DNA from: Leisingera aquaemixtae
GTDB lineage: Bacteria > Pseudomonadota > Alphaproteobacteria > Rhodobacterales > Rhodobacteraceae
NCBI RefSeq assembly: GCF_019801145.1
Contig: NZ_JAHVJQ010000003.1
Span: 124,001 to 188,000 of the forward strand
Length of the DNA: 64,000 nucleotides
Direction of reading: 5' to 3'
Made by a program: the position numbers and the translations under genes. Each line of letters starts with the position of its first letter. The stretch's first letter is position 1. The notes beneath the pieces were generated by a model. It did not search any database. It saw only the letters and a list, made by a program, of their open reading frames with translations, and was not told where the DNA came from. Shown piece after piece: positions 2,530 through 23,051 of the stretch.

Positions 2530-3498
2530 ATGACACCTTTCGCAATTGCTGGTGTTCAAATGCACGTTGGCGCTTTGCACTCGAATGTTGAGGCAATGCG
2601 CCACCGGATTGAAATACTGATGGCCCGCTTCCCCTGGACGCAGATGGTTCTGTTTTCCGAACTGGCGCCCTACGGACCGCTTGACCGCTTTGCCCAGCCG
2701 TTTCCCAACGACGTGGTGCAACAGTTCCAGGAGGATGCCCGCCGGTTCGGCATCTGGCTGATTCCTGGATCGATGTTCGAAAAGACCGAGGACGGCCGGA
2801 TCTTCAACACCTCTGTGGTGATCAATCCGCAGGGGGAGATCGTCGCCAAATACTCCAAGATGTTCCCCTTCCGCCCGTATGAGGCAGGGATTTCGGCGGG
2901 CACCGAGTTTTGCGTGTTCGACGTGCCGGGGGTGGGCCGTTTCGGCCTGTCGATCTGTTATGACATCTGGTTCCCGGAAACCACCCGCCAGCTGACCAGC
3001 CAGGGCGTCGAAGTGCTGCTGCACCCGGTGCTGACCGGCACCACTGACCGGGATGCGGAGATTGCAATTGCCCGCGCGACTGCGGCGCAGTTCCAATGTT
3101 ATGTCTTTGACGTCAACGGGCTGGGCGCAGGCGGCGTCGGCCGGTCGCTGGTCGTGGATCCTTCGGCCACCGTGCTGCACCAGTCGGCAGGCCAGGAGGA
3201 CATGTTCCCGATCGAGATCGACCTCGACCAGGTCCGGCGGCAGCGTGAAACCGGCCTGAAAGGGCTGGGGCAGGTGCTGAAGAGCTTCCGCGACCGCGAG
3301 GCCGAGTTCACCGTTTACGACCGCGCCAGCGGCGCGGATGCTTATCTCAAGACACTGGGGCCGCTGGAAACGCCGGGGCAAGGGTCGCCGCGCGGTTTGC
3401 AAACCGCCGATCCCAGAAGCTCGCTGGAGAATTTGGAACAGACTTTCTATTCGCCGCATAATTTCTCTGTCTTCCCAGGGAAGACAGGCTCAGATTAA
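2530..3498 (+). CDS. Carbon-nitrogen hydrolase (nitrilase superfamily amidohydrolase)
   Basis: Predicted cytoplasmic amidase or carbamoylase with the Glu-Lys-Cys triad of the nitrilase superfamily: E44 in LFSEL, K110 in AKYSKMFPF and C143 in SICYDIWFPE. The 322 residues exceed the usual ~270-300; the extra C-terminal part after about residue 265 is polar and has no recognised motif. It is the first gene of a four-gene same-strand cassette with a PLP decarboxylase, an ATP-grasp protein and a C45-type hydrolase. One possible role is hydrolysis of an amide or N-carbamoyl group on an amine made by the neighbouring decarboxylase, as N-carbamoylputrescine amidohydrolase does in polyamine synthesis. 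That role is inference only. Confidence 0.88.
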   Translation: MTPFAIAGVQMHVGALHSNVEAMRHRIEILMARFPWTQMVLFSELAPYGPLDRFAQPFPNDVVQQFQEDARRFGIWLIPGSMFEKTEDGRIFNTSVVINPQGEIVAKYSKMFPFRPYEAGISAGTEFCVFDVPGVGRFGLSICYDIWFPETTRQLTSQGVEVLLHPVLTGTTDRDAEIAIARATAAQFQCYVFDVNGLGAGGVGRSLVVDPSATVLHQSAGQEDMFPIEIDLDQVRRQRETGLKGLGQVLKSFRDREAEFTVYDRASGADAYLKTLGPLETPGQGSPRGLQTADPRSSLENLEQTFYSPHNFSVFPGKTGSD

Positions 3499-3548
3499 CC
3501 GGACTGGAGGGCGGCACCGGTCCTGACGCGTCAGAAAGGAGGCAGGTT

Positions 3549-6293
3549 TTGAACTTGCACTCGCGTAAGAAGACGTTGCCGTCGATCCGGGACTACTACA
3601 GCGCGACACAGCTTCGCGCGGACAGGTGGAGCGCATTGCGGGAGGCCGCTGAAGGCCTCGCGCGGCACCGCAAGGAAGGCCGAAAGAGCGAGAAGCTCCT
3701 GAAAACGGCGGAGCATCTGTTCGAGGTGCTGGCCCCGATCGAGCAATACTGGGCGTTTCCGGGGATACATGCTTTTGAACATCTCCGCCGCCTTTTGCAG
3801 CATGGCAATGCCGACGATCTGTCGGTGTCCATCCGCCGCATTGCCAGGGCGCTGACCTCCGGCGCCTACCGGCGGCGGTCTATTCCGCTTTCGTCAGAGG
3901 AAATCGACAACGAGGACTATGAGGATGAGGCCTCGCTCGCGCCGGAAGCGCGGGCGCTGGGCCGTCCCTATTTCGAGGTTCTGATCGTTGACGACGTGAC
4001 TGAATCGCAGGAGCGCTTCCTGCGGCAGAACCTGCTGCGCATGCGCCGGGTCGAGGATCAGTTCATCTATGAGCCGGTGATCGTGCCCTCGCTGGAGGAC
4101 GCGCTGATCGGCATCCTGTTCAACTACAATGTGCAGGCCGTGGTGGTGCGCCCGGGCCTGTCGCTGAAGTCCAAGATCGACCTGCCGATCCTCAGCCAGT
4201 ATCTGACGCGGGTCAGCGAGGAGGAGGCCGTCGATGCGATCGAGCCTCATGAATACGGCCCCGAGGCCTGCCGCCTGATTGAGAAGATCCGCCCGGAGCT
4301 GGATGCCTATCTGGTCACTGACCGGTCAGCTGAGGACATTGCCGGGCTGGACTTGGGCCGCTGCCGCCGCGTGTTCTACAACCAGGAGGATTTTCAGGAA
4401 CTGCATCTGAACATCCTGCGCGGGGTGGATCGCCGTTACAAATCGCCGTTCTTCACCGCGCTCAAGGAATATTCAAAGCAGCCCACCGGCGTTTTCCATG
4501 CGATGCCGATCAGCCGCGGCAAGTCGATCAGCCGCTCGCATTGGATCCAGGACATGGGGGCGTTTTACGGCTCCAATATTTTTCTTGCGGAAACCTCCGC
4601 CACCTCGGGCGGCCTCGACAGCCTGCTGGAGCCGCGCGGCCCGATCAAGGAAGCCCAGGACATGGCGGCGCGGGCGTTCGGGGCCAAGCATACGTTCTTT
4701 GCCACCAACGGCACCTCGACCTGCAACAAGATCGTGGTGCAGTCGGTGGTGCGCCCCGGCGATATCGTGCTGGTGGACCGCGACTGCCACAAGTCGCACC
4801 ACTACGGGATGGTGCTGGCAGGCGCCAGCGTGGCCTACATGGACAGCTACCCGCTGCATGAGCATTCGATGTACGGGGCGGTTCCGCTCAGGGAAATCAA
4901 ACACACCCTGCTGCAGCTCAAGGCGGCGGGCAAGCTGGACCGGGTGAGGATGGTCTTGCTGACCAACTGCACCTTTGACGGCATCGTTTATAACGTGCGG
5001 CGGGTTATGGAAGAATGCCTGGCCATCAAGAAGGACCTGATTTTCCTGTGGGACGAAGCCTGGTTTGCCTTTGCGCGGTTTGACCCGACCTACCGTCAGC
5101 GCACTGCCATGGGCGTTGCCAACATGCTCAGGGACACGCTGCGCAGCGAGGAAACGGCAGAGGCCTGGAAAGCGCAGCAGGAAGCGCTCAAGGGTGCCGA
5201 TGAGGAGACTTGGCTGAACACCCGGCTGGTGCCGCCGCCGGATGCGCGGGTGCGGGCCTACGCAACCCAGTCCACCCACAAGACGCTGACATCGCTGCGT
5301 CAGGGCTCGATGATCCATGTGAACGATCAGGACTTCAAGGGCGAGGTCGAGCAGGCCTTTCACGAGGCCTATATGACCCATACCTCGACCTCCCCGAATT
5401 ACCAGATCATCGCCTCACTGGACGTCGGCCGCAGGCAGGTGGAACTGGAAGGGTTTGAATTTGTCCAGAAGCAGATCGAAACCGCGATGTCGATCCGCCG
5501 AGCCATTTCCGACAACCCCTTGCTTAACAAATATTTCCGGGTGCTGACCGCCGGCGACATGATCCCCGAAGCCTTCCGGGAAAGCGGGGTTGAGGCCTAT
5601 TATGATCCGGACCACGGCTGGGCCGACACCTGGAACATGTGGAGCCAGGATGAGTTTGTGCTGGATCCGACCCGCGTCACCCTGGCGGTGGGCGGCACCG
5701 GCTGGGACGGCGATACCTTCAAGACCAAGATCCTGATGGACAAGTACGGGATTCAGATCAACAAGACCTCCCGCAACACGGTGCTGTTCATGACCAATAT
5801 CGGCACCACGCGCTCTTCGGTCGCGTATCTGATCGAGGTGCTGGTGGAGATTGCCAACGATCTGGATGATCTGCTGGACGATGCCTCGAAGATGGAGCGC
5901 CGGTCGTTTGAGAACCGGGTCTCAGCATTGGTGGAGCACGTGCCACCCTTGCCGGACTTCAGCCGTTTCCACGATGCCTTCAGGGCTGGCAGCGACACAC
6001 CGGAGGGCGACATCCGCACCGCCTTCTTCCTCGCTTACAACGAGGACAACTGCGACTACATCCCAACCGATGACAGCCTGATGGAGCGCCTGGAAGCAGG
6101 CGAGGAGCTAGTGTCATCCAGTTTCATCATCCCCTATCCCCCAGGCTTTCCGATCCTGGTGCCTGGCCAGGTCATCAGCCCGGAGATCCTGTCGTTCATG
6201 CGGGCGCTCGACGTCCGCGAGATCCACGGCTACCGCGCCGACCTGGGCTTGCGCGTATTCACCAAGGAGGCCTTGAAGTCCGTCCAAAAGTAG
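3549..6293 (+). CDS. Orn/Lys/Arg-type PLP-dependent decarboxylase, long form
   Basis: Fold-type I basic amino acid decarboxylase family. The PLP lysine is K578 in the motif QSTHKTLTSL, and the Asp pairing with the cofactor ring is in WDEAWFAF (D502). A receiver-like wing domain begins near residue 142 (YFEVLIVDDV). At 914 residues it is about 150-200 longer than ordinary inducible Arg/Lys/Orn decarboxylases; the surplus is mainly an N-terminal charged helical segment (1-140) with no motif I recognise. The start is an in-frame TTG at 3549 with AGAAAGGAGG directly upstream. The product amine is unknown (agmatine, cadaverine, putrescine or another). A 39-bp gap separates it from the ATP-grasp gene, so an operon is likely. 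Confidence 0.9.
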   Translation: MNLHSRKKTLPSIRDYYSATQLRADRWSALREAAEGLARHRKEGRKSEKLLKTAEHLFEVLAPIEQYWAFPGIHAFEHLRRLLQHGNADDLSVSIRRIARALTSGAYRRRSIPLSSEEIDNEDYEDEASLAPEARALGRPYFEVLIVDDVTESQERFLRQNLLRMRRVEDQFIYEPVIVPSLEDALIGILFNYNVQAVVVRPGLSLKSKIDLPILSQYLTRVSEEEAVDAIEPHEYGPEACRLIEKIRPELDAYLVTDRSAEDIAGLDLGRCRRVFYNQEDFQELHLNILRGVDRRYKSPFFTALKEYSKQPTGVFHAMPISRGKSISRSHWIQDMGAFYGSNIFLAETSATSGGLDSLLEPRGPIKEAQDMAARAFGAKHTFFATNGTSTCNKIVVQSVVRPGDIVLVDRDCHKSHHYGMVLAGASVAYMDSYPLHEHSMYGAVPLREIKHTLLQLKAAGKLDRVRMVLLTNCTFDGIVYNVRRVMEECLAIKKDLIFLWDEAWFAFARFDPTYRQRTAMGVANMLRDTLRSEETAEAWKAQQEALKGADEETWLNTRLVPPPDARVRAYATQSTHKTLTSLRQGSMIHVNDQDFKGEVEQAFHEAYMTHTSTSPNYQIIASLDVGRRQVELEGFEFVQKQIETAMSIRRAISDNPLLNKYFRVLTAGDMIPEAFRESGVEAYYDPDHGWADTWNMWSQDEFVLDPTRVTLAVGGTGWDGDTFKTKILMDKYGIQINKTSRNTVLFMTNIGTTRSSVAYLIEVLVEIANDLDDLLDDASKMERRSFENRVSALVEHVPPLPDFSRFHDAFRAGSDTPEGDIRTAFFLAYNEDNCDYIPTDDSLMERLEAGEELVSSSFIIPYPPGFPILVPGQVISPEILSFMRALDVREIHGYRADLGLRVFTKEALKSVQK

Positions 6294-6332
6294 AAGTCCG
6301 AAGATCAATTAGAAAAATCAGGGAGACGTTAC

Positions 6333-7784
6333 ATGCCGAAGAAAGTTCTGAACAACATTTCGGAGATCCGCCGCTATTTCCACACCAATTCGGACCCGAT
6401 CTATTTTGTCTCAGCGACGAACTTCAATCTTCTCGGGCTTGATGAATGGGTGAAGAATTTCAAGTACATCTGCTATATGGACTGTTTCGACGGCCGCCAT
6501 CCGAATGTTTTGGTCCCGTCCGAGCTGCCGCACGATGAATTCCAGTCGATCGAAGACATCAACAACTACCTGCTGCAGCACAAGGAAGTCATCGATTACG
6601 TCAAGGCGCGCGGCGGCAAGCCGAAATTCGTGTTTCTGATGTTCGACGAAAAGACCGAAAAGCTGGTCAAGGAAATCGGCGGCGAGGTCTGGTTTCCCAA
6701 GGCAAAGCTGCGCACCAACATGGACAACAAGATCCAGACCGTACGCGTTGGCAACAAGGCAGGCGTGCCGTCGGTGCCCAATACCCTGTCCAAGGTGGAC
6801 AGCTACGACCATCTCAAAAAGATCTGCAAGAAGGCGGATCTGGGCGACGATCTGGTTCTGCAAAGCGCCTTCGGGGATTCCGGCCACACCACATTTTTCA
6901 TCAAGAACGAGGGCGATTTCCGCAAGCACGAGCATGAGATTGTCGGCCAGGGCGAGATCAAGATCATGAAGCGGATCGATTGCCGCGGTTCCGCGATCGA
7001 GGCCTGCTGCACCTCCGAGGGGACCATCGTCGGCCCCCTGATGACCGAGCTTGTCGGCTTCAAGGAGCTGACCCCCTACCGCGGCGGCTGGTGCGGCAAC
7101 GAGATCTTCGCGACCGCCTTCCCGCCGAAAACCCGCGAAAAGGCGCGGGAGCTGACTTTCAAGTTCGGCGAACAGCTGCGCAAGGAGGGCTACCGCGGTT
7201 ATTTCGAGCTGGATTTCCTGATCGACAAGAAAACCGGCGACATCTGGCTGGGCGAGCTCAACCCGCGGATCACCGGGGCGTCGTCGATGACCAACCACGC
7301 GGCTTTCGCCCATGCCGATGCGCCTTTGTTCCTGTTCCATCTGCTGGAGTTCTCGAAAAAGCCGTTCAAGCTGGACGTGGAGGAGCTGAACGCGCGCTGG
7401 GCCGACCCGGACATGATCGACTCCTGGTCGCAGATGGTGATCAAGCACACAGAGGACACCGTGGACATCGTCACCAAAGCCCCGGAATCCGGCATCTACA
7501 GGATGCTGCCGGACGGCCAGGTTGTGTTTGACCGCTTCGACTACCACCGCCGCGCAGTTGAAAGCGAGGACGAGGCATTCTTCCTGCGCATTTCCAACGC
7601 AGGCGATTACCGTTATGAAGGCGCCGATCTGGGCATTCTGGTCACCCGCGGCCGGTCGATGACCAAGGGGTTCCAGCTGACAGAGAAGTCGAAACGCTGG
7701 ATCGACGGCATCAAGAACGCCTATTCCGCGCGGCCGCTTCCGTCAGCACAGGCCTTTGAGGATCCGGCGTTCAAGATTATGTAG
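6333..7784 (+). CDS. ATP-grasp domain protein (biotin carboxylase-like ligase)
   Basis: An ATP-grasp fold enzyme of 483 residues, often labelled biotin carboxylase in annotations. The metal and ATP-binding core is visible as GYFELDFLIDKK (about 289-300) followed by WLGELNPRITGASS (about 305-318), where E308 and N310 are the expected Mg ligands. No biotinyl-lysine (AMKM-like) domain or carboxyltransferase partner is present nearby, so fatty acid synthesis is unlikely. ATP-grasp enzymes commonly join a carboxylate to an amine through an acyl-phosphate. Next to an amine-forming decarboxylase, an amide ligase role is attractive but unproven. The ATG is preceded by AGGGAGACGTTAC, a good ribosome binding site. 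Only five bases separate it from the next gene. Confidence 0.85.
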   Translation: MPKKVLNNISEIRRYFHTNSDPIYFVSATNFNLLGLDEWVKNFKYICYMDCFDGRHPNVLVPSELPHDEFQSIEDINNYLLQHKEVIDYVKARGGKPKFVFLMFDEKTEKLVKEIGGEVWFPKAKLRTNMDNKIQTVRVGNKAGVPSVPNTLSKVDSYDHLKKICKKADLGDDLVLQSAFGDSGHTTFFIKNEGDFRKHEHEIVGQGEIKIMKRIDCRGSAIEACCTSEGTIVGPLMTELVGFKELTPYRGGWCGNEIFATAFPPKTREKARELTFKFGEQLRKEGYRGYFELDFLIDKKTGDIWLGELNPRITGASSMTNHAAFAHADAPLFLFHLLEFSKKPFKLDVEELNARWADPDMIDSWSQMVIKHTEDTVDIVTKAPESGIYRMLPDGQVVFDRFDYHRRAVESEDEAFFLRISNAGDYRYEGADLGILVTRGRSMTKGFQLTEKSKRWIDGIKNAYSARPLPSAQAFEDPAFKIM

Positions 7785-7789
7785 GCTGC

Positions 7790-8782
7790 ATGAAACTGAC
7801 ATTCCGCGCCGTCGAAGAAGCGGAGCCTGGGCAGAAACTGTCCGGGCTCTTTTCCGAATACCGCACCGCCTATCTGAACTGGTGGGCGGGGGAGGGGCTG
7901 TCGGGCCGGCCGACCTATGCGGAATGCCGCCGGGCGCTGAGTGCCTACATGCCGGAGATCATGGGGGTCTATGACCAGCTGTGCGCTTCGGTCGGCGGCG
8001 GCGACCTTGAAGCGCGGTTCCTGAGTTTTTACTGCCCGCCGCGCTACCTGGCCGGGTGCAGCCAGGCGATCTGGCAGGGCCGGGAGCCGCTCCTGGTGCG
8101 CAACTACGACTACAACCCCTCGGCCTTTGACGCGGTATTCCTAAAAACCGGCTGGGGCGGCCGGCAGGTGATGGGCACCACGGACGGGCTGTTCGGGCTG
8201 CTCGACGGGATCAACGACGCCGGGCTTACGGTTTCGCTCACCTTTGGCGGGCGCCGCGCGATGGGCGACGGTTTTGGCGTGCCTCTGATCCTGCGGTACA
8301 TCCTGCAGACCTGTTCGGCGCTTGATGAGGCGGAAGATGTGCTGCGGCGGGTGCCCTGCCACATGAGCTACAACGTGACGGTGCTGGACCGTGCGCGGAA
8401 CTTCTTTACCGCTTACCTTGCACCCGACCGGCCAACCGTCATCACCCGGGCGGCAGTCGCCACCAACCACCAGGAACGCGTCGAGTGGACCAGCCACGCC
8501 CGGCTGACCGCCTCGGTGGAGCGGGAGCGCTTCCTGCTGCAGCGGCTGACGCTGCATCCGGAGACAAAGGAAAAATTCACTGGTTCCTTCCTGAAGCCGC
8601 CGCTTTATTCGCTGGCCTTCGACAGGGGGTTCGGAACGCTATACACGGCGGCCTATCACCCCTGCGATCTGTCGGTGGAGCTGCTCTGGCCTGACCGCGT
8701 GTGGCGTAATAAACTGGGCCAGTTTGAAACGGGCCACCTTGGCGTCGATTACCCCGATTTCCAGCGCCAGCCCTTGCCATAG
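7790..8782 (+). CDS. C45-type Ntn hydrolase / acyltransferase family protein
   Basis: 330 residues resembling the acyl-CoA:6-aminopenicillanate acyltransferase (C45) and choloylglycine hydrolase clan. The likely autoproteolytic nucleophile is C90 in the Gly-Cys pair of YLAGCSQAIW. The downstream RNYDYNP segment (104-110) and the GLLDGINDAGLTVSLTFGG stretch (about 137-155) are typical for the clan. If processed, cleavage before C90 would give subunits of about 89 and 241 residues. It starts five bases after the ATP-grasp stop, so it is almost certainly co-transcribed. It could hydrolyse or transfer an acyl group onto the amine made by the upstream decarboxylase. The substrate is unknown. Confidence 0.82.
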   Translation: MKLTFRAVEEAEPGQKLSGLFSEYRTAYLNWWAGEGLSGRPTYAECRRALSAYMPEIMGVYDQLCASVGGGDLEARFLSFYCPPRYLAGCSQAIWQGREPLLVRNYDYNPSAFDAVFLKTGWGGRQVMGTTDGLFGLLDGINDAGLTVSLTFGGRRAMGDGFGVPLILRYILQTCSALDEAEDVLRRVPCHMSYNVTVLDRARNFFTAYLAPDRPTVITRAAVATNHQERVEWTSHARLTASVERERFLLQRLTLHPETKEKFTGSFLKPPLYSLAFDRGFGTLYTAAYHPCDLSVELLWPDRVWRNKLGQFETGHLGVDYPDFQRQPLP

Positions 8783-8951: not shown

Positions 8952-10526
8952 ATGATGACACCATTTTCAGAGGTTTATTACTTCGGCGACAGCCTGACGG
9001 ACGAGGGCAACGCCGTAGACATGCTGGCATCAGTCATCGAACCGGTCATCCTGCTGGACTTGATTGCCAGCTTTGGCGGGTTTCCTTCTTCGGATGACCT
9101 GGACCAGCTTCGGGCTGAAGCCAAAATTGTGGCCCGGCAGACAGTGATCGACAGTTTCGGCGAAGTCGGCCCGGAAGGTTCTGTGACCAATGCGCTGACC
9201 CATGCCAGCTACGCCGCCGCACTCGGCGGTTTCAAGGCCGTGAACTATGCAGTGGCGACGGCAACAGCCCTGGGCGATGGCCTGCTGGAGAACCTTATCG
9301 ACCTCGAAGCCCAGGTTGAAGATTTTCTGGAGGATGCCGCGGGCGGAGTGCCGCCGGGCTCGGCTGCGTTTTTCCTGATTGGGGGCAATGATTTCATTGA
9401 TCTGCTGAGGACAGTTAAGGAACAGAATATCACCAGCCAGGCTGAATTCCTGGCGCTTGCGTCGCCGCTGGTCGAGGCGCTGATCGCGCAGATCGTTTCC
9501 GCCGCCGAAACCACCAGCGCCGCCGGGGTTGGCACGGTTTTCCTGGCAACTCAGCCAGCCGATGGTTTCTATCCGGAGTTCGACACGCTCTCGCCTGAAC
9601 ATGCGGGATTCGCGGACCTGCTGGTCGGGATGTTCAACGCCAGTCTCGCTGACAGTATTGCGGATCTTCGCAGCGGCGGAATCGATGCCAGGGCCGTTGA
9701 CCTGTTTGCAGTTTCAGAGGCCCTTACCGAGGATCCGGCAGGATTTGGCATTCTCGCGGACCGGACGGACTACCTGATCGACGGAAGCGTATTCGACAGC
9801 GACCAGGTGCTGGCGTGGGACGCCATTCATCCGGCGGAAACAGCGCATCAGGTCTGGGGCGCCTATGCTGAATTTGTCATGGGCGGCGGCACGACGGCGC
9901 TTCTGGATGACGGCGCATCGGCTCTGAGCACCGGTTCTGCGGCAAATGCAGTGTTTGCGCTGGGCGGAGATGACACCGTAAGGGCCGGCGGCGGCAATGA
10001 TGTCGTAATCGGCGGCACGGGCAATGACGAACTCCATGGCGGCGGAGGCAGGGACATTGTGCTCGGCGGCAGCGGCAATGACATCGTGAAGGGCGCCAAG
10101 GGCAACGATATCATCAGCGGCGGCGACGGCGCGGACGAGCTTCGCGGCGCTGCAGGCAGGGATGTCATCGTGGACGGGCGCGGCGACGACACGGTCTTTG
10201 GCGGGGCGGGCAATGACACGTTCATTTTCACCGAAACGGCGCTCATCGGGGGAGGCGGGGAGTCCAAAGATGTGTTCCACGGCGGGAAAGGGAACGACAC
10301 GCTTTATCTTGTCCTGGACGAGGCCAGTTACCTTGCTTTCGAGGGCGGCGATGTTGACGGCGTTCTGAGCGAGCTTGGCATCACCGTTTTCGGTGTGGAG
10401 CTCATTCACGCCATCGCGGGCAGGGGCAGTATCGCAACTGAATTTGACAGCTTCGGCTGGTTCCCGGCTGCCGATTACTGGGGGGCGGTTTCTGCCCCGT
10501 CTTCCGGCGATGACCTGCTGACTTGA
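8952..10526 (+). CDS. GDSL/SGNH hydrolase fused to RTX calcium-binding repeats
   Basis: A predicted secreted esterase or lipase. The N-terminal half is an SGNH hydrolase: nucleophile S14 in FGDSLTDEGN, the GGND block at 145-148, and the D-x-x-H pair as D290/H293 in AWDAIHP. Residues about 337-425 contain roughly nine glycine/aspartate-rich nonapeptides (GGxGNDxx type) that bind calcium. The C-terminal ~100 residues are a plausible uncleaved type I secretion signal. There is no N-terminal signal peptide, as expected for RTX export. No ABC/HlyD secretion genes lie in the window, so export would depend on a distant system. ATG at 8952 follows GGAAGGGGG. Confidence 0.9.
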   Translation: MMTPFSEVYYFGDSLTDEGNAVDMLASVIEPVILLDLIASFGGFPSSDDLDQLRAEAKIVARQTVIDSFGEVGPEGSVTNALTHASYAAALGGFKAVNYAVATATALGDGLLENLIDLEAQVEDFLEDAAGGVPPGSAAFFLIGGNDFIDLLRTVKEQNITSQAEFLALASPLVEALIAQIVSAAETTSAAGVGTVFLATQPADGFYPEFDTLSPEHAGFADLLVGMFNASLADSIADLRSGGIDARAVDLFAVSEALTEDPAGFGILADRTDYLIDGSVFDSDQVLAWDAIHPAETAHQVWGAYAEFVMGGGTTALLDDGASALSTGSAANAVFALGGDDTVRAGGGNDVVIGGTGNDELHGGGGRDIVLGGSGNDIVKGAKGNDIISGGDGADELRGAAGRDVIVDGRGDDTVFGGAGNDTFIFTETALIGGGGESKDVFHGGKGNDTLYLVLDEASYLAFEGGDVDGVLSELGITVFGVELIHAIAGRGSIATEFDSFGWFPAADYWGAVSAPSSGDDLLT

Positions 10527-10715: not shown

Positions 10716-10748
10716 GTGAAAACGACATCAAGCCAACAGAGGAAATCC

Positions 10749-11768
10749 ATGAAACAGAAAGCGTCATTTTTAACCGCACTGGCCTTCACCATGACGGCGG
10801 CCACCGCCGGGCTGGCCGAAACGGAGCTGACCGTTTACACGGCAGTGGAGGCGGAAGACCTTGCGCGGTATGCGGAGACCTTCAACCAGAGCCATCCGGA
10901 CATTAAGATCAATTGGGTGCGGGACTCCACCGGGATCATCACCGCCAAGCTTCTGGCGGAGCGCGACAACCCGCAGGCCGATGTGGTCTGGGGGCTGGCC
11001 GCAACCTCGCTGCTGCTGTTGAAGTCGGAAGGGATGCTGGAACCCTATGCGCCGGCCGGGGTTGAAGACCTCGATCCCAAATTCGTCGATGGCGACAACC
11101 CGCCCAGCTGGGTTGGCATGGACGCCTGGGTGGCTTCGGTTTGCTACAACACGGTTGAGGCAGAGAAACTGGGCCTGACACCGCCCGCGTCCTGGAAGGA
11201 TCTGACCGATCCGCAGTATGCCGGCCATGTGATCATGCCGAACCCCAATTCCTCCGGCACCGGCTTCCTGGATGTCTCCAGCTGGCTGCAGATGTTCGGC
11301 GAGGAGGAGGGCTGGAAGTTCATGGACGCGCTGCATGAAAACATTGCGCGCTACACCCATTCCGGTTCCAAACCCTGCAAGCTGGCGGCGGCTGGCGAGA
11401 TCCCGATCGGTATTTCCTTCGCCTTCCGCGGCGCCAAGTCCAAGGCCGCAGGCGCACCGCTGGAGATCATTGTTCCCTCCGAGGGCGTCGGCTGGGACAT
11501 GGAAGCAACTGCGATTGTGGCCGGCACCGCAAATCTGGAAGCGGCGCAGACACTGGTCGATTTCACCGTCACCAAGGAAGCCAACGAAATGTACAACACC
11601 GGCTATGCGGTTGTCGCTTTCCCGGGCGTCGCCAAGCCGGTTGAGCATTTCCCCGAAGGGCTGCTGGACGCGATGATCGACAATGATTTCGAGTTCGCGG
11701 CCAACAACCGCGCTGCGATCCTCAAGGAATGGCAAGCCCGCTACGACGGCAAGTCGGAAGCGAAATAA
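10749..11768 (+). CDS. ABC transporter periplasmic binding protein, 2-aminoethylphosphonate type
   Basis: Predicted periplasmic substrate-binding protein of a ferric/phosphonate-type (extracellular solute-binding family 1) importer. An N-terminal signal peptide (MKQKASFLTALAFTMTAATA, cleaved near GLAE) precedes a two-lobed binding fold beginning TELTVYTAVEAEDL. The overall sequence matches the class called putative 2-aminoethylphosphonate binding protein (PhnS2/AepX-like), as far as can be judged by eye. I chose the ATG at 10749 because GAGGAA precedes it at good spacing; an upstream in-frame ATG at 10716 would spoil the signal peptide. An ATPase and a double permease follow on the same strand. 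No phosphonate-degrading genes are in the window. Confidence 0.85.
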   Translation: MKQKASFLTALAFTMTAATAGLAETELTVYTAVEAEDLARYAETFNQSHPDIKINWVRDSTGIITAKLLAERDNPQADVVWGLAATSLLLLKSEGMLEPYAPAGVEDLDPKFVDGDNPPSWVGMDAWVASVCYNTVEAEKLGLTPPASWKDLTDPQYAGHVIMPNPNSSGTGFLDVSSWLQMFGEEEGWKFMDALHENIARYTHSGSKPCKLAAAGEIPIGISFAFRGAKSKAAGAPLEIIVPSEGVGWDMEATAIVAGTANLEAAQTLVDFTVTKEANEMYNTGYAVVAFPGVAKPVEHFPEGLLDAMIDNDFEFAANNRAAILKEWQARYDGKSEAK

Positions 11769-11774
11769 GCTTTC

Positions 11775-11802
11775 AGGGGCGGAGGGTTAGCCTTCCGCCC
11801 CT
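11775..11802 (+). other. Intercistronic hairpin between binding protein and ATPase genes
   Basis: AGGGGCGGA (11775-11783) pairs perfectly with TCCGCCCCT (11794-11802) around a 10-nt loop, six bases after the binding-protein stop and without a T tract. Such hairpins often stabilise the upstream mRNA so that the binding protein is made in excess over the membrane components. Confidence 0.55.
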
Positions 11803-11896
11803 CCGCCTTCCTGAACCTTACTGCCCCATGCCCTGAGCCATGCCGCCCGTTGACAACAGACAGGGTGCCGCGTTGGCATATGCAAGGACCAACGAC

Positions 11897-13012
11897 GTGC
11901 TTCAAATGACCCCGCCAAAAGAAACCTACCTGAGCATCCGCGACCTCTGGAAAGCCTTCGGCAGCTTCATCGCGCTGAAAGACATCTCGCTGGACGTAAA
12001 GGAGGGCGAATTCATCTGCTTCCTCGGCCCGTCCGGCTGCGGCAAGACCACCCTGCTGCGCGCAATTGCGGGTCTGGACCTGCAAACCAAGGGCTCCGTG
12101 ACCCAGGGCAGTCAGGATGTCTCCAACCTGCCGCCGTCAGAGCGCGACTTCGGTATTGTGTTCCAGTCCTATGCATTGTTCCCGAACCTTACGATCGAAA
12201 AGAACATCGCCTTCGGCTTGGAAAACGCGGGCCGCAGCAAGCAGGAAATCAATGCGCGCGTCGCTGAACTGCTGGAACTGGTCGGCCTGCCGGACCAGGG
12301 CCGCAAATACCCGGCCCAGCTGTCCGGCGGCCAGCAGCAGCGGATTGCCCTGGCGCGCGCCATTGCCACCAATCCCGGCCTTTTGCTGCTGGATGAACCG
12401 CTGTCTGCCTTGGATGCCAAGGTGCGTGTCCACTTGCGCCACGAGATCAAGGAGCTGCAGCGCAAGCTGGGTGTGACCACTATCATGGTGACACATGACC
12501 AAGAGGAGGCGCTGGCGATGGCCGACCGCATCGTGGTGATGAACCACGGGGTGATCGAGCAGGTCGGCTCTCCCACGGAAATCTACCGAGAGCCGGCCAA
12601 TCTGTTTGTGGCCGACTTTATCGGCGAGATGAACCAGATCAGTTCATCGGTCGCCAAGGGCGGCCGTCTGGCTGTGGGTGAAAAGACCTTTGCCTGCCTG
12701 CCGCATGAATTTGCTGACGGCACCCCGGTCATTGCCGCCATCCGGCCCGAGGATGTGATCCCGCATGAGGCCGGCTACCTGGAAAGCAGCGGCAACCGCA
12801 ACTGTATCGACGTCCAACTGGCCGAAATGGAATTCCTCGGCTCATTCTGGCGCTGCCGCCTCACCAATGAACGTTTCGGCGGTAAGGAACTGATTGCCGA
12901 CTTCTCCATCAACGCAGTGCGGCGCCTGGATCTGGAGGCCGGCTGCCAGATGGAAATCGAACTGCCCGACAACCGCCTGATGGCCTTTGCGAAAGCCGGG
13001 CAGGGGGCGTGA
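11897..13012 (+). CDS. ABC transporter ATP-binding protein, 2-aminoethylphosphonate type
   Basis: Import ATPase with Walker [10 protein letters not shown], signature [14 protein letters not shown], Walker [13 protein letters not shown] and a switch histidine in [10 protein letters not shown]. The last ~120 residues form a TOBE-like regulatory domain. Start choice is uncertain. GTG at 11897 has AAGGA eight bases upstream, ATG at 11906 is nine bases further, and ATG at 11840 is possible but lacks a ribosome site. It sits between the binding protein and the permease of the same transporter, and its stop overlaps the region where the permease begins. Confidence 0.88.
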
Positions 13013-13017
13013 CGCAG

Positions 13018-15033
13018 ATGACTGATACCACTCAATCCATCATGCCGGCAGGACCGGTGATCAAGGGCAAGCTCAGCCGCGACGACATCATTATGCGCGG
13101 CAGCATGATCATCATCGCGCTTTACCTGGTCGTGTCGCTGGTCTTTCCGCTTTATGCGATGCTGTCGAAATCCTTCTCCACCTACCGGGTGGAACTGTCA
13201 CAGTATGAATTCCAGGTCAGCGATGAGGCCGGGACGTTTGACGGCAGCATCATGACCGGCGCGGAATTGAACGCCCGCAGCGGCACGTTTGCCGATGCCG
13301 AACTGTCCACCGGCGCCGACGGGCGGCTGCCAGTCACCGGTTTCTTCCCGGACTTCAGCTTCCGCAGCCCGGTGATGTACCAGATCCGCAATACCACCGG
13401 CACAGGCCGCTTTCTGATCGGCTCCAACCTGCAAACCGGCACTGAATGGGTCACGCTCGACTCCAACACCTTCCGCCGGGTGCAGCTGCGCCCCGTGCAG
13501 GCGCGGGGGCTGGACAACTTCGTCTCCTATTTCTCTACGCCTGCGCTGTTCAACTCGATCAAGAACTCGTTGTGGATCGCGGTCCTCAGCACCGTTGTCA
13601 CCGTCTCGCTTGCCTTCTGGTTCGCCTACGCGCTGAACCGCAGCTGCATGAAATACAAGGGCGTGTTCCGCCTCATTGCCATGGCGCCGATCCTGGTGCC
13701 GTCGCTGCTGCCGGGTATCGCGCTGGTCTATCTGTTCGGCAACCAGGGCATGATCAAGGAGCTGTTGTTCGGCGCCAGTATCTACGGCCCCATAGGCATC
13801 GTGATCGGTTCTGTCTTCTTCACCTTCCCGCATGCCTTCATCATCATATCCACCGCGCTGGCAATTTCTGACGCCCGTCTTTACGAGGCCGCCGCCAGCC
13901 TGCGCTCCACCCCGTGGCGCACCTTCTGGACGGTAACAGTTCCGGGTGCGCGTTACGGCCTGATCTCGGCAGCCTTCGTGGTCTTCAACCTTGTGATCAC
14001 CGATTTTGGCCTGCCCAAGGTGATCGGCGGCCAGTTCAACGTGCTGGCGGTGGACATCTACAAGCAGGTGATCGGACAGCAGAATTTTGAAATGGGCGCG
14101 GTGGTCTCCGTGGTGCTGGTGATCCCCGCAATCCTCGCCTTTGCCATCGACCGCATGGTGCAGTCCAAGCAGGTGGCGCTGCTGTCGGCACGCTCGGTCC
14201 CGTATGAGCCGCAGCCGAATAAGAAGATGGACCGTATCTTCTTTGCCTATTGCACCTTGATTGGCATCTTCATCGCCGGGCTGCTGGCAGTCTGCCAGTT
14301 TGCGGCACTGATCAAGTTCTGGCCCTACGATCTAAGCCTCAGCCTGAACAACTACCAGTTCGATAAGATGGACGGCGGCGGCTGGGGCTCCTATGTGAAC
14401 TCCATCAAGCTGGCGCTGATGACAGCTGTGGCCGGCACTGCCGTGGTGTTCTTCGGCGCCTATCTGGTGGAAAAGTCCAAGGGCTTCCGCACGGGGCGCG
14501 CCATCTTCCAGATGTTTGCGATGCTGCCAATGGCCATCCCGGGCATGGTTCTGGGGCTGGCCTACATCTTTTTCTTCAACAACCCCGCCAACCCGCTCAA
14601 TGCGATCTACGGCACCATGGCGATCCTGGTGGTCTGCACCGTCACCCACTTCTACACGGTGTCGCATCTGACGGCGGTCACCGCCCTCAAGCAGATGGAC
14701 CGGGAGTTTGAATCCGTCGCCGCGTCGCTCAAGCAGCCGACCATGAAGCTGTTTGCCCGCGTCACGGTGCCGGTCTGCCTGCCCGCGGTGCTGGACATCT
14801 CGATCTATCTCTTCGTGAACGCGATGACGACGGTGTCGGCGGTGGTGTTCCTCTATTCACCCAAGACCACGCTGGCGTCGATTGCGGTGCTGAACATGGA
14901 TGATGCTGGCGACATCGCCCCTGCGGCAGCGATGGGGATGATGATCTTCTACACCAATGCGCTGGCGCGGATCATCCACCTGCTGGCCTCCCGCGGCATC
15001 CTGCGCCGCACCCAGGCCTGGCGCAGCCGCTAG
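13018..15033 (+). CDS. ABC transporter permease with two fused permease domains, 2-aminoethylphosphonate type
   Basis: A duplicated inner-membrane permease of 671 residues. Two EAA-type loops that dock with the ATPase are visible (EAAASLRSTPWRTFWTVTVP and ESVAASLKQPTMKLFARVTV), one per half. About twelve membrane segments can be counted. A hydrophilic stretch of about 110 residues (roughly 55-165, including GADGRLPVTGFFPDF) lies between the first and second membrane segments and should face the periplasm. It makes the protein longer than the usual ~550-residue FbpB/PhnU2-like permeases. ATG at 13018 is preferred over the GTG at 13009 because AGGGGG lies ten bases before it. Confidence 0.87.
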   Translation: MTDTTQSIMPAGPVIKGKLSRDDIIMRGSMIIIALYLVVSLVFPLYAMLSKSFSTYRVELSQYEFQVSDEAGTFDGSIMTGAELNARSGTFADAELSTGADGRLPVTGFFPDFSFRSPVMYQIRNTTGTGRFLIGSNLQTGTEWVTLDSNTFRRVQLRPVQARGLDNFVSYFSTPALFNSIKNSLWIAVLSTVVTVSLAFWFAYALNRSCMKYKGVFRLIAMAPILVPSLLPGIALVYLFGNQGMIKELLFGASIYGPIGIVIGSVFFTFPHAFIIISTALAISDARLYEAAASLRSTPWRTFWTVTVPGARYGLISAAFVVFNLVITDFGLPKVIGGQFNVLAVDIYKQVIGQQNFEMGAVVSVVLVIPAILAFAIDRMVQSKQVALLSARSVPYEPQPNKKMDRIFFAYCTLIGIFIAGLLAVCQFAALIKFWPYDLSLSLNNYQFDKMDGGGWGSYVNSIKLALMTAVAGTAVVFFGAYLVEKSKGFRTGRAIFQMFAMLPMAIPGMVLGLAYIFFFNNPANPLNAIYGTMAILVVCTVTHFYTVSHLTAVTALKQMDREFESVAASLKQPTMKLFARVTVPVCLPAVLDISIYLFVNAMTTVSAVVFLYSPKTTLASIAVLNMDDAGDIAPAAAMGMMIFYTNALARIIHLLASRGILRRTQAWRSR

Positions 15034-21438: not shown

Positions 21439-21717
21439 CAGGCGCTGGCAGGGCAGCACTCCCGGACGGGAAAGCGCCGGGCAGGCGCGGCCGGGCGAGT
21501 TCAAGACCATTGTGTGCCGGTGTGATTGCCCGCGGCCACCTGCGCAGGGGGGCGGGGCGGCGTGCAAACGGCCACCTGTTTCTGCCGCCGCTCTTGGGTG
21601 AAAAATCAACGCCGGCCCGAGCCGTTGCAGCCCGCCCTCCCGCGGCTGGCTGGCAAGAATTCAGCAATCCGGACGAACTTTTTCTTGCCGCACGGTAAGT
21701 GATGCGCTACCCGCGCT

Positions 21718-21890
21718 TCACCGGTCCCGTAAGGGCTAAGAGGGAATCCGCGGCGCCGTACGGTGCCAAACGGAACTGCCCCCGCAACTGTAGGCGGCGA
21801 GTGCTGTCCCATCGTGTCACTGGGCCTGACCGGCCCGGGAAGACGGGACAGACAGTGACCCGCCAGTCAGGAGACCTGCCGGTGCGAAAC
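21718..21890 (+). ncRNA. Adenosylcobalamin (B12) riboswitch
   Basis: The conserved cobalamin riboswitch core is visible. It runs from AAGAGGGAATCC, through AACTGCCCCCGCAACTGTA (21773-21791), to the B12 box GCCAGTCAGGAGACCTGCC at 21862-21880. A 6-bp hairpin CCGGAC/GTCCGG at 21900-21917 follows and may be part of the expression platform; no T tract is seen, so control of translation or Rho access is more likely than intrinsic termination. It leads into the importer genes from 22041. The stretch 21439-21717 upstream of it contains no convincing gene. Confidence 0.93.
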
Positions 21891-22040
21891 CGAAACACAC
21901 CGGACGGGGTTGTCCGGGGAGGTTGCCGATAAGATGCGCCGCCGCTGTCTGGTGCCGCATGAAGGGGGCCAGGCTCCCGCCTTAGCGGTCAATGCCCTTT
22001 CACCCGTTCTCCGGTCATTGACACATGGAGATCGAAGATC

Positions 22041-23051
22041 ATGTTTCTGCGTTCCGGCCTGATGGGCCTTTCCTTCGTTGCGGCAGCTCAGGCCGCAGCA
22101 GCCAGCGAGACCTTTCCGCTGACCATTCAAAACTGCGGCGAGGCCGTCACCTTCGAGGCGCCGGTTGCGTCCTCCGTGACCGTCGGCCAGGCCGCGACAG
22201 AGGTGCTCTATGCGCTGGGGCTGGGCGACAAGGTGCTGGGCACCTCGGTCTGGTTCAACGACGTGCTGCCCGAATTTGCCGAGCTGAACGGCAAGGTCGA
22301 GCGGCTGGCCGACAATGACCCGAGCTTTGAAAGCGTTGTGGCCAAGCGCCCGGGCCTGGTGGCTGCCCAGTATGAGTGGCATGTCGGCCCCGAAGGCGTA
22401 GTCGCCAAGCGCGAGCAGTTCCATGACCTCGGCATCCCGACCTATGTGATGCCCGCGGATTGCGTCGGCAAGGACAACACCACCGGCGGCGACGGCACCC
22501 GCACCCAGATGTTCACCACCGAAAGCCTCTATCAGGGCATCGAGGAACTGGCAGCGATCTTCGGCGAGTCCGAAAAAGGCGCAGAGCTGGTCGCAGACTA
22601 CAAGGCGCGCGAGGCTGCAGCTGTGGCCAAGGCACAGGAGGTCGCGCTGGACGACGCCTCCGCCGTGTTCTGGTTCTCTTCGCCGGAGATGGAAAGCGAC
22701 CCGTTCGTGGCCGGCCAGAAGGGCGCACCGGGCTACATGATGCAGCAGCTGGGCCTGCGCAATGTCATCGAGACCGACGAAGAATGGCCGACCGTCGGCT
22801 GGGAAACCATTGCCAAGGCCAACCCGACGGTGATCGTGATTGCCCGTATGGACCGCCGCCGCTTTGCCGCGGATGACTACGAGAAGAAGCTGGAGTTCCT
22901 GCGCAATGATCCGGTCGCCAGCCAGATGGAGGCGGTCAAGAATGATCGCATCGTGGTGATGGACGCCCAGGCCATGGATGCCACCATCCGCGCCATCCCG
23001 GCGCTGGAGGATCTTGCCGCTGAGCTCAGCGCGATCGGCAACGGCGAATGA
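22041..23051 (+). CDS. Cobalamin-type ABC transporter substrate-binding protein (BtuF-like)
   Basis: A 336-residue periplasmic binding protein of the BtuF/FhuD helical-backbone class. The N-terminal signal peptide ends near AAAASETFPL. The body has the expected VGQAATEVLYALGLGDKVLGTS segment and two lobes joined by a long helix. Placement directly under an adenosylcobalamin riboswitch argues for cobalamin or a cobalt complex as substrate rather than an iron siderophore. The downstream permease overlaps its stop by four bases. No TonB-dependent outer membrane receptor is in the window. Confidence 0.85.
   Translation: MFLRSGLMGLSFVAAAQAAAASETFPLTIQNCGEAVTFEAPVASSVTVGQAATEVLYALGLGDKVLGTSVWFNDVLPEFAELNGKVERLADNDPSFESVVAKRPGLVAAQYEWHVGPEGVVAKREQFHDLGIPTYVMPADCVGKDNTTGGDGTRTQMFTTESLYQGIEELAAIFGESEKGAELVADYKAREAAAVAKAQEVALDDASAVFWFSSPEMESDPFVAGQKGAPGYMMQQLGLRNVIETDEEWPTVGWETIAKANPTVIVIARMDRRRFAADDYEKKLEFLRNDPVASQMEAVKNDRIVVMDAQAMDATIRAIPALEDLAAELSAIGNGE

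Follow-up and report, generated by a model that had tools for sequence, protein, structure and literature searches.

A co-inherited cassette of nitrilase, long PLP decarboxylase, ATP-grasp and C45-type genes in Leisingera aquaemixtae, with a possible role at the glutamate-GABA node

Four neighbouring genes in a 64,000-nucleotide stretch of Leisingera aquaemixtae DNA (here called the window; contig C3 of a 4.9-Mb genome) are inherited together in many Proteobacteria and very probably act together as one functional unit. They encode a nitrilase-superfamily amidase (NIT), a long pyridoxal 5'-phosphate (PLP) decarboxylase of the OKR type (ODC), an ATP-grasp enzyme (GRASP) and an N-terminal nucleophile (Ntn) enzyme of the C45 family. 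We ascribe a joint function to the four genes because they are co-inherited. Gene set, enzyme classes and co-inheritance are observations; for the substrate of the decarboxylase, the evidence is that of gene context. On this evidence we tentatively favour a glutamate or gamma-glutamyl substrate, an amide being made and broken at the node of gamma-aminobutyrate (GABA).

Co-inheritance of the four genes

A contig scan with the ATP-grasp protein returned 358 relatives, of which the best 80, mostly from Rhodobacterales, were fetched; the nearest named relatives belong to Leisingera. With 42 further stretches, 122 were examined, and 109 of them hold a matching ATP-grasp open reading frame (ORF). 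All four genes are present in 87 of these 109 loci, the individual partners being found in 105 (C45), 99 (decarboxylase) and 94 (nitrilase). Locus and genome counts, here and below, ignore kinship, and some genomes may have been sampled twice. An earlier reading of the window from its sequence alone (the sequence-only reading) held that the idea of a cassette would fall if the four genes rarely travelled together; the comparison, now made, leaves that idea standing.

Gene order is NIT-ODC-GRASP-C45 in 80 of the complete loci, including L065, whose apparent ODC-first order results from extension of the ORF to the first start codon. The decarboxylase gene comes first in four loci from Paracoccus, the order is NIT-GRASP-C45-ODC in two, and one locus is divergent. 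One or more genes are missing from the sequence covered in 22 of the 109 loci: short stretches or contig-end cuts account for L026, L066, L085, L087, L136, L137 and L141, and do not account for L041, L051, L125-L129, L131, L133, L142 and L144-L148.

Genome-wide counts point the same way. Among 299 genomes of Pseudomonadota, a set that contains the window's own, nine have a true ATP-grasp orthologue, each scoring at least 510 bits and six lying above the cut-off, the next match reaching 51 bits; in all nine, the decarboxylase gene adjoins the orthologue or is one gene away. Among 385 Alphaproteobacteria genomes (again including its own), ATP-grasp is found in 11, decarboxylase in 11, nitrilase in 12 and C45 in 16. 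Uncorrected for kinship, the decarboxylase accompanies ATP-grasp in 9 of 11 genomes against 2 of the 374 without it (Fisher p 6e-15), the nitrilase in 9 of 11 against 3 of 374 (p 3e-14) and C45 in 10 of 11 against 6 of 374, those six at 39-44% identity (p 5e-15). Furthermore, pairwise distances of the four proteins are correlated (r 0.82-0.92, 88 loci). These co-occurrence figures are inflated because the genomes are related; complete yet rearranged sets in other families are a stronger argument for a unit than the counts. No description of the four-gene cassette was found in the literature searched, in which coverage of subscription papers is slight, in agreement with the sequence-only reading, which could name no known polyamine operon with such a set.

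Traces of loss were also observed. One genome (G476, C1:4206097-4207715) holds an ATP-grasp remnant (residues 298-483) next to an intact C45 gene, with no decarboxylase or nitrilase match genome-wide at the thresholds used: this locus is a decayed cassette. Copies on rhizobial plasmids (L127, L128, L134 and L145) are in some cases apparently split or truncated; the L127 copy lies near nifA, the L128 copy lies near a Nif11-type locus for a ribosomally synthesized and post-translationally modified peptide, and transposases are close in L127 and L134. The cassette thus seems to decay on these plasmids, given the split or truncated copies and the nearby transposases.

Family membership and active sites of the enzymes

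Residues D502, H577 and K578 of the decarboxylase are conserved in 105 of 105 alignment rows. Its PLP-site residues K578, D502, H577 and W505 align with K367, D330, H366 and W333 of CadA, as expected of an AAT-fold basic amino acid decarboxylase (LAOdc); LdcI, AdiA and OdcI have these PLP-site residues and the Pfam family in common with it. The cassette enzyme, however, exceeds AdiA, CadA and SpeC in length by 159-203 residues and has other gene partners. The acidic residue found at the substrate turn in LAOdc enzymes (CadA E526, SpeC E524, AdiA D575) is not present in the family: N738 occupies the position of CadA E526 and SpeC E524 in 105 of 105 rows, and R742 that of AdiA D575 in 103 of 105. 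The role of CadA E526 in substrate binding was proposed from docking, according to the accessible text of that study (PMC5607190); that of AdiA D575 is taken from the alignment. We rejected the notion that Glu526 is common to all basic decarboxylases: it is present in Providencia AdiA and LdcI, but Escherichia coli AdiA has T571 at this position.

A full-length match, N-terminal extension included, was obtained with Rv2531c of Mycobacterium tuberculosis (9n0n; E 5e-250, query residues 19-911). Rv2531c (PDB 9n0n/9n0o) keeps the Asn but lacks Arg742 and Arg755. A structural study left the activity of this protein unclarified, as related in the available part of a review (PMC12910592).

The ATP-grasp protein has no Pfam match, and the NCBIfam family whose cut-off it passes is named 'biotin carboxylase'. 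Residues E308, N310 and R312 are conserved in at least 97% of 110 rows, and G315 and S317 are invariant in 25 rows. An AlphaFold2 model (predicted local distance difference test score, pLDDT, 88.6) has the ATP-grasp fold, with biotin carboxylase, PurK, PylC and GARS tied as fold matches; identity to biotin carboxylase, PurK and PylC enzymes is 8-16% in the rows compared. In a profile alignment, NPRITGASS stands opposite NPRIQVEHT of pyruvate carboxylase 3tw6, and the Gln-Val-Glu that follows the Asn-x-Arg motif, which we take to be the functional Q294, V295 and E296 of E. coli biotin carboxylase, is missing. A true biotin carboxylase is thus judged unlikely on the motif (IQVEH reads ITGAS), not on the fold: despite its family name, the enzyme is probably something else.

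The C45 protein passes its family cut-off and has the Gly-Cys site at which self-cleavage is predicted; Cys90 is conserved in at least 97% of 105 rows and invariant in a set of 46. Its AlphaFold2 model (pLDDT 94.0) best matches the fold of the acyl-CoA:isopenicillin N acyltransferase precursor (2x1c), from which it differs by its low identity (14%) and its gene partners. The nitrilase has the Glu-Lys-Cys triad (E44, K110 and C143 in at least 97% of 95 rows). It reaches no NCBIfam equivalog cut-off, the highest score being 74.1 bits where 355 are required: deaminated glutathione amidase, N-carbamoylputrescine amidase, formamidase and other subfamilies were tried and all fell far short. Its PDB matches, the best at 67.8 bits, single out no substrate.

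The four ORFs are co-directional and occupy window positions 2530-8782 (Table 1), with intergenic gaps of 50, 39 and 5 bases in cassette order. The sequence-only reading had proposed a four-gene cassette here with intact, undecayed active sites, and had grouped the decarboxylase with enzyme classes that make or break amides. ORF layout and family scores agree with the first claim, catalytic residues kept across family rows with the second, and family assignments together with co-inheritance with the third.

Table 1. Position of the cassette genes and of selected sites in the window
Feature	Position	Strand	Evidence
Nitrilase-superfamily amidase (NIT), 322 amino acids	2530-3498	+	CN_hydrolase PF00795, 107.7 bits; triad E44, K110, C143
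Shine-Dalgarno-like AGGAGG, six bases 5' of the decarboxylase TTG start	3537-3542	+	Sequence
Long OKR-type PLP decarboxylase (ODC), 914 amino acids, TTG start	3549-6293	+	OKR_DC_1 PF01276, 253.3 bits
PLP lysine K578 of the decarboxylase	5280-5282	+	Alignment
ATP-grasp enzyme (GRASP), 483 amino acids	6333-7784	+	NCBIfam NF005096, 759.7 bits, cut-off 684
C45/AAT Ntn enzyme, 330 amino acids	7790-8782	+	NF040521, 159.8 bits, cut-off 85
Cys90 of C45, predicted self-cleavage directly before it	8057-8059	+	Family and fold

Gene neighbourhoods and candidate substrates

Upstream of the cassette, and on the same strand where drawn, a TAXI receptor gene is found in 31 of the 109 loci and a fused TRAP permease gene in 32, accompanied in 29 loci by a UspA-like gene. 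The receptor of L120, the one searched, has as its best PDB match 8s4j (416 bits), which is VcGluP, a glutamate-specific TAXI protein in the accessible text of its report (PMC12344293). Equivalents of VcGluP residues Y45, S75, Q93 and E125, chosen from the available account of its binding determinants (PMC11574862), are kept in 9 of 9, 16 of 16, 29 of 29 and 30 of 30 covering rows (31 receptor rows, a duplicate query having been dropped); the equivalent of Y200 is Tyr in 24 rows and Phe in seven. By the PDB match and these residues, the cassette-linked receptor is classed as a glutamate-type TAXI protein. Sodium-dependent growth of Cereibacter sphaeroides on L-glutamate requires a TAXI-TRAP pair, as stated in the part of the study available (PMC12632250).

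Genes linked to GABA or glutamate also recur near the cassette: 19 of the 109 loci have a GabT-like gene, 14 a PuuR-like gene, nine a succinate-semialdehyde dehydrogenase (SSADH) gene and six, all on rhizobial plasmids, a gene of the glutamate-dehydrogenase family. In a Paracoccus locus (L048), gabT sits between ODC and NIT. A GABA transaminase scores above the cut-off in 7 of 15 cassette genomes searched; in three of the seven, about 7 kb at most separates it from cassette genes.

Decarboxylase copies away from the cassette provide a further indication. Of 39 plasmid records with the decarboxylase, six without an adjacent ATP-grasp gene were examined (L150-L155); together with two genomic copies, this gives eight, of which six adjoin AspT-type antiporter genes (L151-L154 on plasmids, L156 and L157 in genomes). 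These six decarboxylases form a single clade (support 99/98). Two of the antiporters were scored, one falling above and one below the TIGR03802 cut-off.

Under the favoured glutamate reading, GABA or a GABA amide would arise when the long OKR-type enzyme decarboxylates L-glutamate, imported or endogenous, or a gamma-glutamyl compound. The ATP-grasp enzyme would spend ATP in coupling GABA or glutamate, through its carboxyl group, to an amine. The C45 protein would cut itself before Cys90 and then cleave or exchange the resulting amide, as isopenicillin N acyltransferase does, while the nitrilase-type enzyme would hydrolyse a small amide; excess GABA would be drained through GabT and SSADH. It is possible, if doubtful, that a branch of the OKR fold has changed its substrate to glutamate or gamma-glutamyl compounds and serves in two settings: beside an AspT-type antiporter it would form a hitherto unrecognised glutamate/GABA exchange pair, and in the cassette with ATP-grasp, C45 and nitrilase it would help to make and recycle a GABA amide.

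Several observations weigh against this reading. The argument from the substrate turn is only moderate, because E. coli AdiA has Thr there and Rv2531c lacks both arginines. TAXI-flanked loci are mostly from Rhodobacterales and number only 31, and the window's own locus has no TAXI gene. Where a GABA transaminase is present, it is remote from the cassette in four of the seven genomes, and the window's genome has none above the TIGR00700 cut-off; some GabT-like neighbours may be there by chance, as class III aminotransferases abound, with 19 matches in the window's genome. L150 and L155 have no annotated aspT, and their decarboxylases fall among the cassette enzymes; the L150 plasmid carries ATP-grasp at another site. 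No canonical glutamate decarboxylase scores above the cut-off in the 15 cassette genomes (weak matches in five), which fits a glutamate substrate and proves little, since the same holds for 11 of 14 control genomes. Agmatinase-family genes occur in 5 of the 109 loci, and the two proteins scored by hidden Markov model both pass the TIGR01230 cut-off. Finally, the data single out no candidate for the amine and acid partners of the ATP-grasp enzyme.

The agmatinase-family genes lend some plausibility to an arginine/putrescine route, in our view a somewhat less likely alternative, in which the decarboxylase would yield agmatine or putrescine, an agmatinase-family enzyme, where present, would remove urea, the ATP-grasp enzyme would acylate the amine, much as PuuA acylates an amine with glutamate, and C45 and nitrilase would free GABA for GabT and SSADH. 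Membership of the decarboxylase in the OKR family is in its favour. In L138 and L139, the agmatinase-family gene lies upstream of NIT on the cassette strand; in L131, L144 and L148, the genes for nitrilase, ATP-grasp and C45 are surrounded by those for an Lrp regulator, an amino acid permease, an agmatinase-family gene, AruI, an aldehyde dehydrogenase, DadA and a racemase, a set that would presumably take arginine to 4-guanidinobutyrate and GABA. Arginase and LysE/ArgO-type genes lie near the separate decarboxylase of L150. PuuR-like regulators are found in 14 of the 109 loci, but the three scored fall below the PuuR model cut-off. Against this route are also the lack of an acidic turn residue, the AspT-type antiporters, the glutamate-type receptor and the lack of an oxidase in the cassette. 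GABA may be the node common to the glutamate-type and arginine-type settings. Similarly, the Puu pathway for gamma-glutamyl-putrescine combines amidation, amide hydrolysis and GABA catabolism, as proposed here; its ligase and hydrolase folds differ, and none of PuuA, PuuB, PuuC or PuuD is among the cassette's four genes.

The arginine/putrescine route is a catabolic form of the interpretation given in the sequence-only reading, which suggested Arg, Lys and Orn as substrates to assay and a small amide metabolite or modified polyamine as product. The intact, co-inherited unit of that interpretation holds; a basic amino acid as substrate and a modified polyamine as product are not supported, as the glutamate-type TAXI receptors, GabT/SSADH, AspT antiporters next to copies without the other three genes, and missing acidic turn residue point rather to glutamate and GABA.

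Decarboxylation of a protected substrate, for which the evidence from gene set and context is equal to that for the favoured reading, appears distinctly unlikely. Here ATP-grasp would first join glutamate to an amine, the decarboxylase would act on the gamma-glutamyl amide, and C45 would release or transfer the GABA unit. Butirosin BtrJ and BtrK follow such a logic, and isopenicillin N acyltransferase, the closest match of the C45 model, removes an aminoadipyl amide. However, AspT-linked orthologues without a neighbouring ATP-grasp suggest a free amino acid as substrate, and the cassette has no carrier protein gene. That the decarboxylase is an ordinary acid-stress enzyme, lying by chance next to three unrelated hydrolase and ligase genes, is very improbable: AspT-linked orthologues do resemble acid-stress pairs, the one in L151 with an HdeA/HdeB-family chaperone gene close by, but these form their own clade, and the co-occurrence in 385 genomes and 109 loci, with the same set in rearranged order, speaks against chance.

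Flanking genes and implications

The window's flanking genes were considered as members of the unit and rejected: ubiD and ubiX have no match in the 80 loci, and the GDSL gene and phnS2-T2-U2 match strongly only in L010, other phnT2/phnU2 matches being weak (25-50%) transporter homologues. The UbiD and UbiX family genes (129-2251) lie immediately upstream and are not conserved with the cassette. Downstream are a GDSL-type hydrolase fused to RTX calcium-binding repeats (8952-10526) and genes for a putative 2-aminoethylphosphonate ATP-binding cassette transporter of PhnS2-T2-U2 type (10716-15033; three of three above NCBIfam cut-offs), a block shared, among the 80 loci, only with L010. A Cobalamin riboswitch (21705-21897, 107.8 bits) lies about 1.1 kb 5' of a FecCD-type permease gene at 23048.

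A study of Castellaniella (2026) infers an uncharacterised glutamate decarboxylase and, in its accessible text, leaves the antiporter open (PMC12915299). The decarboxylase family described here might fill a glutamate decarboxylase/antiporter gap of this type. The favoured reading gives a testable identity to proteins now labelled 'biotin carboxylase' or 'Orn/Lys/Arg decarboxylase'. If it is true, marine and plant-associated bacteria would have a metabolite at their glutamate-GABA node that is yet to be found.
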